64,000 nt of DNA. Source: Candidatus Lumbricidiphila eiseniae (GTDB taxonomy: Bacteria > Actinomycetota > Actinomycetes > Actinomycetales > Microbacteriaceae). The position numbers and the translations under genes were made by a program. Below are positions 2,345 through 49,468 of this stretch, one piece after another. The first letter of the stretch is position 1. Each line of letters starts with the position of its first letter. The stretch lies in NCBI GenBank assembly GCA_002529645.1, contig NAEP01000028.1:124001-188000 (forward strand), written 5' to 3'. Under the pieces are notes generated by a model that did not search any database, was not told the DNA's origin, and saw only the letters and a program-made list of their open reading frames with translations.

Positions 2345-3648
2345 GAACACCCCCACCGGAACCGTTCGACACCGTCGAGATCATCCACACCAAACGCGAC
2401 CACCGCGAACTGACAACCCAACAGATTAACTGGCTTGTTGAGGCCTACACCCGCGGCTACGTCGCTGACGAGCAGATGTCAGCGCTGACAATGGCAATAT
2501 TCCTCAATGGGATGTCCCGCCGAGAGATTCGTGACCTCACCGCTGCGATGATCGCCACCGGTGAACGGATGGACTATTCCGCGCTGGGGAAGCCCACCGC
2601 AGACAAGCACTCAACCGGGGGTGTTGGTGACAAGATCACCCTGCCTCTCATGCCGCTTGTGGCAACCTTCGGGATTGCGGTACCGCAGTTATCCGGGCGT
2701 GGGCTGGGGCACACCGGTGGCACGCTCGACAAACTGGAGTCGATTCCGGGGTGGCGCGCGACCCTCAGCGGTTCCGAGATGTTCGCGCAACTACGCGACG
2801 TGGGCGGCGTCATCTGCGCGGCCGGTGCCGAGCTCGCACCCGCCGACAAGAAACTCTATGCGCTGCGTGATATCACCGGGACGGTCGAGGCGATCCCACT
2901 TATTGCGTCGTCGATCATGTCGAAGAAAATAGCCGAGGGCACACGAGCGCTAGTGCTCGACGTGAAATTCGGCTCGGGCGCGTTCCTCACGGATATCGCT
3001 CGGGCACGAGAGTTGGCTCGGACGATGGTGGAGTTGGGAACAGACGCGGGGGTTGCGACATCCGCCCTGCTCACCAACATGAACGTGCCACTCGGCCTCA
3101 CAATCGGTAACGCGAACGAGGTGCGCGAATCGGTCGAGGTGCTTGCGGGCGGTGGGCCGAGGGATGTCCGTGAGCTCACCGTTGCCCTCGCGCGGGAGAT
3201 GCTCACGATGGCGGGGCATCCTGATGTTGATGTGGCCGCGGCGCTTGACGATGGTCGGGCGATGGACACGTGGCGGCGTGCGATTCGCGCTCAGGGCGGT
3301 GATCCGGATGCTCCGCTACCGACAGCGCGCGAACAACACCCGGTCACGGCTGACCGTGATGGGGTGCTCGTGGCGCAGGAGGCACTGCCGTTCGGGATCG
3401 CTGCCTGGCGACTCGGTGCCGGTCGAGCGCGCAAAGAGGATGCCGTCTCGCACGGGGCGGGGATCGACCTGCACGCGAAGCCTGGCGATCACGTGCGGGC
3501 AGGGCAGCCGCTGTTTACGCTGCACGCTGACGATCCGGCGCGGTTTGCACGAGCCTTGGAGGCGGTTGCCGGCGCCTGGCGAATCGGGGATATCGGTGAC
3601 CCCATCGTCGACGGTGGCCCACTCGTCGCCGAACGCCTCGGTGCCTGA
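2341..3648 (+). CDS. deoA: Thymidine phosphorylase
   Basis: Reversible phosphorolysis of thymidine/deoxyuridine to the free base and deoxyribose 1-phosphate. 435 aa, the usual length. The family signature SGRGLGHTGGTLDKLESIPG is present near residue 118, followed by the phosphate-binding region with KKIAEGTRALVLDVKFGSGAF, and the C-terminal pyrimidine-nucleoside-phosphorylase domain ends around GDPIVDGGPLVAERLG. The GTG start overlaps the cdd stop as GTGA. Directly downstream of cytidine deaminase, it takes that product on to central metabolism. Confidence 0.95.
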   Translation: MRTPPPEPFDTVEIIHTKRDHRELTTQQINWLVEAYTRGYVADEQMSALTMAIFLNGMSRREIRDLTAAMIATGERMDYSALGKPTADKHSTGGVGDKITLPLMPLVATFGIAVPQLSGRGLGHTGGTLDKLESIPGWRATLSGSEMFAQLRDVGGVICAAGAELAPADKKLYALRDITGTVEAIPLIASSIMSKKIAEGTRALVLDVKFGSGAFLTDIARARELARTMVELGTDAGVATSALLTNMNVPLGLTIGNANEVRESVEVLAGGGPRDVRELTVALAREMLTMAGHPDVDVAAALDDGRAMDTWRRAIRAQGGDPDAPLPTAREQHPVTADRDGVLVAQEALPFGIAAWRLGAGRARKEDAVSHGAGIDLHAKPGDHVRAGQPLFTLHADDPARFARALEAVAGAWRIGDIGDPIVDGGPLVAERLGA

Positions 3649-9112: not shown

Positions 9113-9805
9113 CTAGCCGTACCCCAGCCCGAGGGGATCAAGAGAGCACTCATGAAAGGCCGGGGAATCCGCATCGTGAGCGTTTGTTTCCCAATCGTGT
9201 CGGTAGTCTTTAGCGGTATAGGAGGCAGGAACTAACTTCTTTTTCACCAGGCACGCGACCATTATTTCGTCTTCATTAAGATGCTGTGGATTTCGAGCCA
9301 TGTCGTACCTCAGCGTAGAGATGAGAGAATGATCCTGATCACATCGTTTCCACACTTGTTGAATCTGATCAATACTCATCTCAGCTGTTGCGTGGTTCAG
9401 TGGTTTTGCGCCTCTTCCTTCATCTAAGAAGCCCTCGTTCAGCATGCATTTCCGATACAGGCTCTCTGTCTGCGCAAAATCCTGGTCGGTGATGTGACCT
9501 TTTGCGAGAATCTGGCGAACCAGATCACTCGTCGTCTTGCGGTAAAACTCTGCGAACTCATCTGCCCACGGTCCCGTGAATTCTGGAATTACCGCCGGTG
9601 GATCTGGAACCTCCGGATCCGGGGAGATCTTCACCACCATCTCGGAAGTGGAAGATCCTGCAGACTCACCTTCTTCGCTGGAACATGCCACGAGCCCTAC
9701 CGCCAGCAACACCACAAAAACAGCTGAACACACCGTCTTCCCAAGGACCGCACCATCACGCTGGTTCCCAGCAGAACACGTGACACCACATCCGTCATCT
9801 TCCAT
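9113..9805 (-). CDS. Secreted lipoprotein with four cysteines, putative partner or immunity protein
   Basis: 230 aa. Hydrophobic segment followed by lipobox LVAC (modified Cys at residue 41), then a Ser/Glu/Pro-rich linker and a globular domain with four further cysteines in the contexts YRKCMLNEG, WKRCDQDH, VACLVKKK and FHECSLDP, suggesting two disulfides outside the membrane. ATG at 9805; a GTG at 9814 is the alternative. It follows the small secreted peptide gene with an 11-base overlap. Family not recognised by name. Immunity, receptor or processing function is inference from context only. A decayed second copy lies at 8589-8800 and an N-terminal fragment near 10302-10370. Confidence 0.65.
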   Translation of the reverse strand: MEDDGCGVTCSAGNQRDGAVLGKTVCSAVFVVLLAVGLVACSSEEGESAGSSTSEMVVKISPDPEVPDPPAVIPEFTGPWADEFAEFYRKTTSDLVRQILAKGHITDQDFAQTESLYRKCMLNEGFLDEGRGAKPLNHATAEMSIDQIQQVWKRCDQDHSLISTLRYDMARNPQHLNEDEIMVACLVKKKLVPASYTAKDYRHDWETNAHDADSPAFHECSLDPLGLGYG

Positions 9806-10085
9806 TGAAGCCACGCCTCACTACCCGCGACACCGGACAATAAGGCTGCGTTGACGTGGAACCCGGCCGAGCCCAATTAGCATTCCCGTGGTACTGCCCG
9901 TCAGCAGCCCGCATCCAATGCTGGATCGACCCGGTTGACCAGGGGTAGTTATATGCCGAAAAGTCGCGAACCTGAACGTGGTACCTCGCGGCATGCGCTG
10001 GGACCGCTGTCAAGGTTGCGACCATAAGAGAGATTACGATAATGGGTACGGCCGGTGCAAGTCGCTTCGTCAGTTTCCTGGTCAC
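9795..10085 (-). CDS. Small secreted peptide, bacteriocin-like
   Basis: 96 aa. GTG at 10085, with AAGAAGGG upstream, is preferred over the longer ATG frame at 10142. Basic start TRKLTKRLAP, hydrophobic core, and a likely Sec signal-peptidase site after PAHA (residue 32). The mature 64 residues are rich in Tyr, Trp, His and Arg, with a core HWMRAADGQYHGNANWARPG and a single Cys. General features resemble small secreted bacteriocins of the lactococcin-972 type (Sec leader, aromatic mature part, adjacent ABC genes), but I see no definite family motif. The core recurs in a decayed copy at 10440-10653. Function is inferred. Confidence 0.55.
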   Translation of the reverse strand: MTRKLTKRLAPAVPIIVISLMVATLTAVPAHAARYHVQVRDFSAYNYPWSTGSIQHWMRAADGQYHGNANWARPGSTSTQPYCPVSRVVRRGFNGR

Positions 10086-10301
10086 AATGAGGCCCTTCTT
10101 TCGGGTTGTATTGCCGGTTTCCGGCGCCGCAATCAGCCGCACAGGTTGAACTCACAACGTAACATAATTTTGCGTTGCCTTTGCGTCTGGTTGGAGCTGC
10201 CCCTGATACATCACACTGAGGCTGCTGCCCCACTGAGAATGACGAGCATCAACCCCGTCCGTTTGGTGATCTGACTGTACCATCACCGGGTTCGGTATAG
10301 A

Positions 10302-10653
10302 AACAGCCGAACACACTGTTTTTCTTATAGGCCATGCCATCACGCCGGCCTCCAGTGGAACACACAACACACTCCGTCATCTTCCATAGAAACCACACCT
10401 CACCACCCTCAACGTGGTGCAGTAAGGCTGTACCGCCACCGAACCCGGTCGAGCCCAGTCAGCACCCTCGCGGCACTCCCCGCAGCACTGGGTCTTCGAA
10501 TTCAACGCGTCCCGCCCAGTCAGCACCCTCGCGGCACTCCCCGTCAGCAGCCTCCATCCAGTGCTTGACCTGTCCGGCGGGACCAGTACTTAGATGATAG
10601 AGAGTGCACGCCCATTGAGGCCACAGAAAAAAGACTGGAAACAACAAACTCAC
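10302..10653 (-). pseudogene. Decayed duplicate of the peptide/lipoprotein gene pair
   Basis: DNA from about 10302 to 10610 aligns collinearly with 9722-9960. The peptide part reads GQVKHWMEAADGE and GADWAG (compare GSIQHWMRAADGQ and NANWAR) but lacks a proper leader and ends early. The lipoprotein part retains only a signal-like RKTVCSAV (compare GKTVCSAV) before falling apart. Relative to the intact copy it carries a 61-bp insertion at 10483-10543. Most of 10143-10302 is otherwise featureless. Confidence 0.72.
10453..10543. repeat. Perfect 30-bp direct repeat flanking a 31-bp spacer (61-bp unit)
   Basis: Bases 10453-10482 and 10514-10543 are identical (core GTCAGCACCCTCGCGGCACT), separated by 31 unrelated bases. 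The paralogous segment of the intact peptide gene (9841-9960) aligns on both sides but has one copy (9871-9900) and no spacer, so exactly one 61-bp repeat-spacer unit was gained here. The geometry matches a type I-E CRISPR unit. Confidence 0.9.
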
Positions 10654-13414: not shown

Positions 13415-13563
13415 GGATGTTTTCGTGTGCGCGAGAACGCGATGCACGGTACTCGGAGCGCTTCGAGACGGGGATGGATGTTTTTGCGTGCGCGCAAACA
13501 CGCCAGTGGCAGTGCAGTCACGTCGCACAGTTCTGCGAACTACCTCCGCGTGCGCGAGAATGT
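13415..13563. repeat. Degenerate direct repeats at 61-62 bp spacing upstream of lpdA
   Basis: A 26-bp segment at 13415-13440 (GGATGTTTTCGTGTGCGCGA core) recurs 61 bp later at 13476-13501 with five mismatches, and its 3' half (GCGTGCGCGAGAA) again at 13548, 62 bp on. Repeats 1 and 2 keep a weak palindrome (GTTTTCG/CGAGAAC; GTTT-GCG/CGC-AAAC), with some changes that look compensatory. The sequences between repeats are unrelated. They fill the gap between divergent PNP and lpdA. Confidence 0.65.
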
Positions 13564-22421: not shown

Positions 22422-22511
22422 GATCTTTGCTGTGGGTCTCGGATGTTGAGTTTGCCTCGGATGTCGCGGGCTACCCGCGATGGAGCTTTGCTGTGCACCC
22501 CGGGTGTTGAG
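22422..22511. repeat. Imperfect 29-bp direct repeat, 61-bp spacing
   Basis: 22422-22450 and 22483-22511 share 23 of 29 bases (CTTTGCTGTG then GTGTTGAG or ATGTTGAG at the end). The 32 bases between are unrelated to either flank and contain a short palindrome CGCGGGCTACCCGCG. It lies downstream of maf and upstream of the HTH/ImmA relic. Confidence 0.5.
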
Positions 22512-23247: not shown

Positions 23248-23391
23248 TTCCGGGATCCGGTGGTGTGTCGTCGACATGCGCACAGATCCTGCATCAACTG
23301 CGGCAAACGCGGCAGCAGCGTCCCGGTGTCGCCGACATGCGCACAGATCCTGCGGTGGACCTATTCCTTCCGGGCTCCGGTGGTGTGTCGT
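23248..23391. repeat. Direct repeats with 61-bp spacing between maf and the RNA methyltransferase gene
   Basis: 23265-23292 and 23326-23353 match at 27 of 28 bases (core CGACATGCGCACAGATCCTG) and enclose a 33-base spacer, giving a 61-bp unit. A 24-bp stretch beginning TTCCGGG at 23248-23271 overlaps the first repeat and recurs at 23368-23391, 120 bp away. The layout resembles a small, partly rearranged repeat-spacer array in a divergent promoter region. Confidence 0.8.
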
Positions 23392-29900: not shown

Positions 29901-30053
29901 GAAGCCGCTGTGCCCGATGAGGGCCTCGCTGAAGCCGGGGTGCCGTTCTACTCCATTTCGGGGAAGCCTCTGTGCCCGATGAGGGCCTCGCACTCGGGAT
30001 CGCAGGAGCCAGTGAATGGGTGTGGGGCTGCTGTGCCCGACGATGGGCTCCTG
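29901..30053. repeat. Three direct repeats with two different spacers (CRISPR-like array) between purK and purE
   Basis: Repeat 1 (29901-29929) and repeat 2 (29963-29991) agree at 28 of 29 bases (core CTGTGCCCGATGAGGGCCTC). Repeat 3 at about 30024-30052 keeps CTGTGCCCGA but is degenerate after it, as terminal CRISPR repeats often are. Spacer 1 (29930-29962, 33 bp) and spacer 2 (29992-30023, 32 bp) are unrelated to each other. Unit lengths are 62 and 61 bp. The repeat holds a short GCCC/GGGC stem. No cas gene is in this window. Confidence 0.82.
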
Positions 30054-30625: not shown

Positions 30626-31983
30626 GTTTTATCGGCCCTACAATCCGAAATCCGGATGTCGCGTCCCGCTCGGCGATGACCCGTCGTGCCTGGTGGCTTG
30701 TTGCACTCAACGTGCTCATACCGGGAGCACCTCAGGTGCTCGCCGGGAGCCGGGGACTGGGGCGGTTTGGCCTGCGATGCACGTTTATGCTGTGGCTGGT
30801 TGCCATTGCCGCCCTGGCAGTGTTCATCTGGCAACGGTCAATGTTCATCTCGATTGTTGCGAATGCGTGGGTGTTGTGGGCTGTCACGGCCACACTCGCG
30901 TTCTACGCCGTGCTCTGGCTTATCCTCACCCTCGACACACTCCGACTGGTGCGCATCGTGCGCATTGCTCCGAAAGCCCGGGTATGGGTCGCCATAGTGC
31001 CCGTCCTCGTGCTTGTTGCTCTCTCTGGAACCGTGGTCTACGCGGCCTCCGTCACGAGCACCGCGAGTGGCGTTCTCGACAAGGTTTTTGTGGCGGGTCC
31101 GAGCGTTCCGCCGGAGAACGGGCGGTACAACGTCCTGCTCATGGGCGGCGATGCGGGGCCTGATCGCCAGGGCATGCGGCCCGACAGTATCACCCTCGTC
31201 AGCGTGGACGCGGCAACCGGATCAGCCGTGACCATTGGTATGCCGCGCGAGTTGACAAATATTCCGCTCAACGACAGCTCTCCGCTGAAGAAGCTGTACC
31301 CAGACGGGTATGGCACACACGGGTGCAATGTTGACGCCTGCCTGTTGAACTCGATCTACACCGAGGTGCAGCTGAAGAGCCCCGAGTTGTATCCGGACGC
31401 AACGCAGAACGGCAGCAGCCCCGGCATTGAGGGGATGCGCGATGCTGTTGAGGGCATTACCGGTTTGAAGATCCAGTTTTACCTCCTCGTCGACATGGCC
31501 GCTTTCTCGCAACTGGTCGACGCCCTCGGCGGTGTCACTGTTAGTGTCACCGACGCCGTTCCCATCCACGCCGATGACACGTTCACGACCGTTGCGGAGT
31601 GGATTAAAGCCGGCACTCAGAAGCTAGATGGTTACCACGCGCTGTGGTACGCCCGGTCACGCCACGGGTCCAGCGACTACGCGCGGATGCAGCGGCAGCG
31701 ACAGCTCGAACAGGCAATGCTGGCCGAGTTCACCCCCCTGACGCTCCTCACCAAGTATCAGGCAATCGCGGCGGCCAGCGCTGAGCTGGTAAAAACAGAT
31801 ATCCCGCAGTCGATGCTCGGATTCTTCGTCGATCTTGCCGGGAAAGCAAAAACTCAGAAGCTCACGGATGTTCCACTGACGCCGGACAACAACGTTGATG
31901 CAGACGAGCCCGACTACGGATACATCCGCACTCTCGTCCGCACTGCCGTGTATCCAACGCCCTCCCCGACACCCGCCGGATAG
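30622..31983 (+). CDS. LCP (LytR-CpsA-Psr) family glycopolymer transferase
   Basis: 453 aa. About four hydrophobic N-terminal segments (residues 25-140) are followed by the extracellular LCP domain: [20 protein letters not shown] near residue 175, the catalytic-region [26 protein letters not shown], and [20 protein letters not shown] near 350. LCP enzymes move polyprenyl-linked glycans onto peptidoglycan, so this is the probable final step for the polymer made by the downstream cluster. The additional N-terminal helices resemble the actinobacterial long form. Pro/Thr-rich C-terminal end. Confidence 0.9.
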
Positions 31984-32050
31984 CGTCGAAGATGCTCGAC
32001 AAACCGGCTGGCTCGGGTCGGCCTCCCCGACGCCCACCGGGTTGTGTCGG
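31961..32050. repeat. Imperfect 29-bp direct repeat, 61-bp spacing, over the LCP stop codon
   Basis: 31961-31989 and 32022-32050 match at 23 of 29 bases (CCTCCCCGAC at both starts). The first copy encodes the Pro/Thr-rich LCP C-terminus and its stop. The second lies in the gap before the convergent glycosyltransferase. Confidence 0.5.
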
Positions 32051-36066: not shown

Positions 36067-37778
<1,712 letters not shown>

Positions 37779-49394: not shown

Positions 49395-49468
49395 ACCCGC
49401 GTACCGACAGGACAGCCGTCGCATCACCATATACGTAGTAGTACGACCCGCGTACCGACAGGACAGCC
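49395..49468. repeat. 23-bp direct repeat, 51-bp spacing, between divergent glycosyltransferase genes
   Basis: 49395-49417 and 49446-49468 are identical (core CGCGTACCGACAGGACAGCC). The second copy ends one base before the ATG of the next gene. Spacing is 51 bp, so it does not follow the 61-bp pattern seen elsewhere; it could be a double regulator site or a tandem duplication. Confidence 0.85.

Follow-up and report, generated by a model that had tools for sequence, protein, structure and literature searches.

The window, by which we mean the whole 64,000-nucleotide (64 kb) stretch of DNA analysed here, contains an exact pair of 30-nt direct repeats at an offset of 61 bp (10453–10482 and 10514–10543). 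The unit is built from a 28-nt target-site duplication (copy 1, 10453–10480), a 33-nt insert (10481–10513) and an exact second copy of the target (10514–10541), the latter placed by the repeat search and a recount against the paralog; none of the features described here is assigned a strand. The boundary of copy 1 was obtained by alignment with a donor in the same genome. All 33 nucleotides of the insert recur at C11:13968–14000 (L186:13968–14000), where the 33-mer is preceded by AAA, and on this basis the boundaries were set to 28 + 33 + 28. The original prediction had described 30-bp repeats around a 31-bp spacer. The unit and its length of 61 bp hold, but the true boundaries are 28 and 33, with two bases common by chance. 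For an exact 28-nt pair at offsets 59–63, a rough estimate of the chance expectation in 64 kb is 4e-11, and the pair at 10453 is not a product of chance. Its 30-nt repeat has no third match in the genome at up to three mismatches.

A paralogous stretch retains an empty site, a single copy of the target without an insert, at 9871–9898. The alignment between the two stretches is shifted by 582 before the insert and by 643 after it, which amounts to a gain of 61 bp, as the repeat finding also gave. Upon recounting, the left flank and copy 1 were identical to the paralog at 81 of 110 positions, and copy 2 and the right flank at 48 of 64. The insert itself has no match in the paralog (best 14 of 33). 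The proposed gain of a 61-bp repeat–spacer unit next to a paralogous empty site is therefore confirmed, as the flanks align on both sides and the insert is absent. The unit had also been placed inside a duplicated gene. The sequence around 10453 looks like a decayed copy of the open reading frame (ORF) at 9795–10142, but it is intergenic according to simple codon-based gene models. The ORF at 9795–10142 matched no NCBIfam family.

Several further units had been suggested in the window. Two of these are genuine, and each insert has a self donor that matches all 33 nt. One (23265–23353) consists of 28-nt repeats around a 33-nt insert (23293–23325; donor C5:66803–66835), the other (29901–29991) of 29-nt repeats around a 33-nt insert (29930–29962), whose exact donor at C19:9219–9251 lacks an A/T PAM. 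A third, at 22422–22511 and offset 61, is decayed; its repeats are identical at 23 of 29 positions, and its insert still has a self copy over 30 of 31 nucleotides (C56:32061–32091). The loci at 13415–13502 and 31958–32049 (31961 in the original prediction) are probable decayed units, likewise at offset 61, the former backed, as a class, by an excess of weak pairs in the sampled part of the genome described below, the latter found in the repeat scan of the window. They fall into the 61-bp class, but their inserts have no self donor within three mismatches in the whole genome. The weaker candidate at 3645 is not supported, being a 16-nt match at offset 62 and nothing more. Counting direct-repeat segments with a score of 11 or more, the window holds six at offset 61 and two at offset 62, whereas 380 offsets have 0.19 each on average. 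The window also contains an exact 23-nt direct repeat at offset 51 (49395–49468), which lies outside the 61-bp class, and tandem repeats of 18-bp (1837–1931) and 6-bp units (37091–37144).

The same spacing is strongly enriched across the genome. In a sample of 1,249,749 bases (44% of 2,847,834), pairs scoring 18 or more numbered 44, 92 and 14 at offsets 60, 61 and 62 (150 in total), compared with a mean of 0.73 and a maximum of 5 at the other 56 offsets in the 40–100 range; the excess anticipated for offsets of 60–63 is thus present. In 855,487 bases of the genome, with the native CRISPR array excluded, the corresponding counts were 28, 58 and 13. Here, the other 271 offsets averaged 0.48, and the highest value, 15 at offset 18, reflects a simple-repeat period. 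Repeat lengths of 27–29 nt dominate and rise with the offset (27–28 at offset 60, 28–29 at 61 and 29 at 62), so that the stretch between the repeats stays at about 33 nt. At offsets 59–63, we collected 158 units, from which three low-complexity cases were removed. The remaining 155 units occupy 136 sites and substantiate the suggestion of a recurrent process in this genome. Most of the sites (122) hold one unit, while 12 hold two, one holds three and one holds six. At only four of the 136 sites does the repeat resemble the repeat of a different site by 80% or more. Weaker pairs (score 12–18, at least 18 nt) number 18 at offset 60 and 22 at offset 61, with a mean of 1.2 and a maximum of 8, and this excess represents older, decayed units. 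By proportion, the whole genome would hold about 350 units, adding roughly 21 kb, at probably some 300 sites. A mini-array of seven repeats was seen at L039:750–1144, where a self donor in the sample is available for four of the six inserts and both orientations occur; 14 kb away, at L039:14798, lies one unit with a similar repeat (82%).

Other genomes were compared using a common filter (score 18 or more, 22–36 nt, arrays removed, offsets 60–62). It returned 85 pairs in 855 kb of this genome, one pair in 400 kb from four genomes of the same genus without cas1, and none in 400 kb from three other cas1-bearing genomes of the order. In each of the latter three, a native array with a period of 61 bp lies next to cas1, and it is by this period that we consider them type I-E-like. 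Around 80 Cas1e genes (1.49 Mb), 22 pairs were detected; 20 were judged by eye to be ordinary CRISPR repeats, which leaves two (in L071 and L129). As 61-bp arrays and Cas1 occur elsewhere without scattered units, possession of such a system or enzyme is not by itself a sufficient explanation.

The search for cas1, cas2 and a genuine type I-E array proposed in the original prediction revealed a type I-E cas operon with both genes and a native array. Contig C67 encodes cas3, cse1, cse2, cas7, cas5, cas6e, cas1e and cas2e according to NCBIfam matches, of which that of cas6e is weak (21.1 bits, cut-off 45.2). Cas3 and the Cascade genes are full-length ORFs, with Cas6e weakly recognised. Cas1e and Cas2e are full-length as well, and almost all of Cas1 aligns with type I-E Cas1 proteins of solved structure. 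The native array (L014:7622–11876) comprises 70 repeats of 28 nt and 69 spacers, 66 of them 33 nt long, at a period of 61 bp. It has a leader, essentially one repeat sequence and a spacer GC content of 0.52. Among 60 genomes of the genus, this one included, no other has Cas2e. The search for Cas1 covered 30 genomes, and the 18 others of the same genus lacked it. A Cas1-family search of the genome itself found the Cas1e gene at C67 only, and a comparison of Cas1 with plasmids gave identities below 60% in all 185 records matched. DNA of the window matched plasmids only distantly, and one ORF belongs to an actinobacterial family.

The native array has several features of its own. At its start (L014:7574–7727; C67:47574–47727), 49 nt of the leader and a 28-nt repeat are duplicated in tandem as a 77-bp block, and the outer repeat carries no spacer, from which we conclude that canonical acquisition may have stalled since. 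Spacers sp4 and sp36 (L014) are identical. The leader-proximal spacer sp2 (L014:7728–7760) matches the chromosome at L173:11863–11893 (31/31 aligned, one mismatch by eye) without an A PAM, and the match of sp3 is partial. A short CRISPR-like repeat cluster (GTTCACCCCCGCACGCGCGGGGTAG), which is counted among the 155 units, lies beside the cas operon at L015:1839–1987 and overlaps the start of the cas6e-like ORF. In a search of phages, the native array matched one record, Saccharomonospora phage PIS 136 (JX006077.1:15680–15895), perhaps a phage-borne array; it yielded no phage source of the native spacers.

The origin of the inserts was investigated by searching for second copies in the sampled 44% of the genome. 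Such copies were found for 66 of the 158 inserts (at least 22 nt, 85%), and for 59 the copy reached 26 nt and 93%. An equal search with reversed inserts returned self copies for 0 of 158, and control 33-mers taken beside the units had a second copy in 20 of 775 cases. Among the native-array spacers, two of 68 have a self match (sp2 and sp3; leader copy excluded), compared with 66 of 158 inserts (Fisher p = 1e-10). Dividing 66/158 by the sampled fraction of the genome gives a ratio of 0.95, which signifies that nearly all inserts may be self-derived. The 92 of 158 inserts without a self copy in the sample count against this reading; for most of them, either the donor would have to be in the 56% outside the sample or the insert would have to be too old. 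The donors are still in place in the genome, so the process copies DNA.

A total of 59 donors were aligned, and 58 were kept after one low-complexity case had been dropped. Of these, 29 span exactly 33 nt and 11 span 34 nt, and the remaining 18 vary from 28 to 41 nt, with the longest spans belonging to units whose repeats were found too short. An A at position −1 or a T at +1 flanks 27 of the 29 exact 33-nt donors (expected 36%); the other two lack it and so count against the Cas1–Cas2 explanation given below. Of the 116 donor ends, 13 + 12 have AA or TT exactly at the listed boundary, where the background is 4%. When any consistent boundary is allowed, 31 of the 58 donors show AA or TT and 27 do not. 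The A/AA flank of the donors is a PAM, and the proposed search of the inserts against self DNA thus identified many as chromosomal copies with a PAM. Within genes, 16 donors lie on the same strand, 18 on the opposite strand and 11 are undetermined, with 13 donors intergenic; no strand bias is apparent.

A target with a 32–34-nt insert could be fitted for 51 of the 58 donors, and 45 were oriented by their PAM. In these 45 units the target duplication is 28 nt long in 28 cases, 27 in eight, 29 in seven, and 26 and 30 in one each, counts that lean towards the 33-nt inserts and PAM ends favoured by the fit. The 45 oriented 28-mers share C8 (82%), C9 (67%), G20 (62%) and G21 (69%), at positions identical to those in the native repeat. 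A CC-N10-GG dyad with at least three of the four bases is present in 118 of 155 units, compared with 28% of random places. A strand-free motif search over the targets gave a weak logo; orientation by PAM and the fixed dyad make the better test. Overall, the oriented targets agree with the native repeat at about 12 of their 28 positions, where 9.9 would be expected at random, and show no native-like polarity (12.33 matches forward, 12.13 reversed; 21 targets forward, 16 reverse). AT content, the one property of the flanks looked at, is flat at 0.35–0.43 when averaged over 44 oriented units, and in these units a leader-like flank is not evident from it.

The simple codon-based gene models assign 77% of the sample to coding and 23% to non-coding DNA. 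Of the 136 sites, 94 are intergenic, 27 extend across gene ends and 15 lie inside genes; the units avoid genes. Offset 60, which keeps the reading frame, accounts for 11 of 16 units inside genes compared with 24 of 107 intergenic ones (p = 0.0004), although some low-scoring pairs within genes could be ordinary protein repeats. One unit (L025:8464; self donor L189:18930–18957) lies in purH, identified by NCBIfam. We took 15 purH loci from relatives and excluded seven in which the longest frame was wrong; all eight usable loci lack the segment. The net length difference is 30 alignment columns instead of 20, so about 10 PurH residues differ for another reason. In a genome search with purH, relatives whose DNA is contiguous also had this gap, at about 213 to 242 of the query. 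Empty sites, which the original prediction had asked for in relatives, are therefore found both in the paralog within the window and in purH of related genomes. For the unit at L188:13813–16794, the protein is poorly conserved and its comparison uninformative. Among the 155 repeat pairs, 42 are at least 99% identical and five are below 85%, and this spread suggests that insertion has probably been ongoing over a long time.

The enrichment, the geometry, the self donors and their 33-nt length, the PAM, the dyad, the empty sites, the avoidance of genes and the presence of cas2e in one of 60 genomes all point to Cas1–Cas2. We are thus highly confident that the 61-bp units are scars left, in a long-running process, by the resident type I-E Cas1e–Cas2e, which integrated self-derived prespacers off target. 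Insertion by such a complex at a non-CRISPR site had been predicted from the window, and the enrichment, the resident system, the empty sites and the PAM support it, with the anatomy of the units suggesting Cas1–Cas2 as the agent. None of the refuting findings named in the prediction turned up. It had anticipated neither the self origin of the inserts nor a number of sites that probably comes to some 300. The 28 + 33 + 28 anatomy at 10453 equals the geometry of the native array, which makes this unit one example of a genome-wide process.

In the mechanism we propose, Cas1–Cas2 would capture 33-bp fragments of the host chromosome next to an A/AA PAM by naive, self acquisition, and would attack both ends of a 27–29-bp chromosomal segment with a CC-N10-GG dyad. 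Full-site integration would place the 33-bp prespacer at the 28-bp target, and filling of the gaps by host repair would produce target–insert–target, adding 60 to 62 bp. A leader would apparently be unneeded for off-target integration. Located outside the native array, the scars would most probably give rise to no effective crRNA, and their self inserts would escape an autoimmune purging that may act selectively on array spacers. Production of effective crRNAs by the array alone would account for the survival of the scars and for an array almost without self spacers. The scars would build up chiefly in intergenic DNA, or in frame inside genes, and then decay by mutation, and some sites would be reused, forming mini-arrays of up to seven repeats. 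We suggest that this host mis-targets perhaps because its integrase was acquired horizontally without the guiding host factor. In a broader sense, CRISPR adaptation is likely to act as a general mutator here, which writes mainly self DNA into repeat-like sites and has generated several hundred 60–62-bp units, new mini-CRISPRs and in-frame protein segments even in the housekeeping enzyme PurH, leaving a long-lived record of naive self acquisition unfiltered by autoimmunity.

Asking what else could leave such units, we considered whether they are dispersed and decayed remnants of old canonical CRISPR arrays. Targets and native repeat have the CC...GG dyad in common, a few sites are mini-arrays, and the CRISPR-like cluster at L015:1839–1987 is near the cas operon. 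However, the repeats vary by site (4/136 at least 80% like another), the 45 oriented units agree with the native repeat at only about 12 of 28 positions (9.9 at random), and the 10453 repeat is found nowhere else in the genome. Many inserts are moreover chromosomal copies with a PAM. The empty sites, where the target predates the insert, contradict the idea directly, and we rejected it as extremely improbable. Replication slippage, template switching or end joining could duplicate a sequence and add filler from elsewhere without Cas proteins, and repair of this type can give duplications with templated inserts. It predicts, however, no preferred insert of 33 nt, no duplication of 27–29 nt, no donor PAM and no target dyad, and leaves unexplained why there is one pair in 400 kb of same-genus genomes without cas1. 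The fixed length and the PAM led us to reject these processes too, and we give them hardly any credence.

Casposon Cas1 homologues make target duplications. Since they also integrate DNA (described in part of PMC7786333), another transposase or a casposase-like enzyme might be thought to insert the units, but the only Cas1-family gene detected in this genome is cas1e at C67, the inserts are differing chromosomal 33-mers and not an element, and the units have the geometry of the native array. On these three grounds another transposase was rejected; its involvement would be most surprising. It is also quite unlikely, if slightly less so, that the units are functional neo-CRISPRs under selection, with self-matching crRNAs that regulate genes. 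Two or more units are present at 14 of 136 sites, six at one of them, and Cas3 and Cascade are encoded by full-length ORFs, with weak recognition of Cas6e. Against this, the targets differ from the native repeat, 122 of 136 sites are single units without several identical repeats, and the repeats decay, as only 42 of the 155 pairs still reach 99% identity. Self-matching crRNAs combined with a PAM and active Cas3 should also be lethal, as is general knowledge and as passages of PMC6990116 indicate.

A cell whose working array contains self spacers is expected to die (PMC6990116, in part), and acquisition is therefore visible in natural arrays only once selection has acted. The scars outside the array seem to retain what selection normally removes: where naive acquisition in nature draws its DNA from, which PAM and length it prefers, and the true target preference of the Cas1–Cas2 integrase. 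They also present CRISPR adaptation as a mutator that acts by insertion and as a source of new arrays, a role proposed mainly from over-expression work. If strains were compared, the rate of insertion and the way in which CRISPR arrays originate could be measured directly.

The scattered units resemble the native array of the same genome in its 28-nt repeat, 33-nt spacers, 61-bp period and C8C9...G20G21 dyad. They differ from it in that the array has essentially one repeat sequence, a leader and two self-matching spacers among 68. Off-target integration with formation of neo-CRISPRs was reportedly observed in 2018 by Nivala, Shipman and Church in E. coli over-expressing type I-E Cas1–Cas2, where a target duplication of repeat length is said to surround a spacer-length insert at chromosomal sites that resemble the native locus. 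Few natural cases (Yersinia pestis, Sulfolobus islandicus) were reportedly described in that study. The target duplication of repeat length, the spacer-length insert and the native-like target are shared with our units. Unlike in E. coli, the process described here is natural and genome-scale (155 units in 44%), its products have accumulated and decayed over a long time, they are apparently nearly all self-derived, in-frame insertions are kept in genes, and the average flank, judged by AT content, has no AT-rich leader-like character. Over-expression of Cas1–Cas2 can give non-canonical integrations (part of PMC11788318), and IHF-like motifs occur near such integrations (part of PMC9456107). 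As outlined in sections of PMC5338259, PMC7999890 and PMC8265633, ectopic acquisition in Streptococcus type II-A systems likewise puts a spacer at an unusual place, but this place is within the CRISPR array and the setting is phage exposure. Self-targeting spacers (Wimmer and Beisel, PMC6990116, in part) are likewise copied from the host chromosome; they sit in arrays and threaten autoimmunity, whereas the scattered units lie outside the array. A search of the open-licence PMC literature returned no report of natural genome-scale off-target integration or of hundreds of such units. While the integration reaction is known from E. coli, its natural scale, the self origin of the inserts and their persistence look new.
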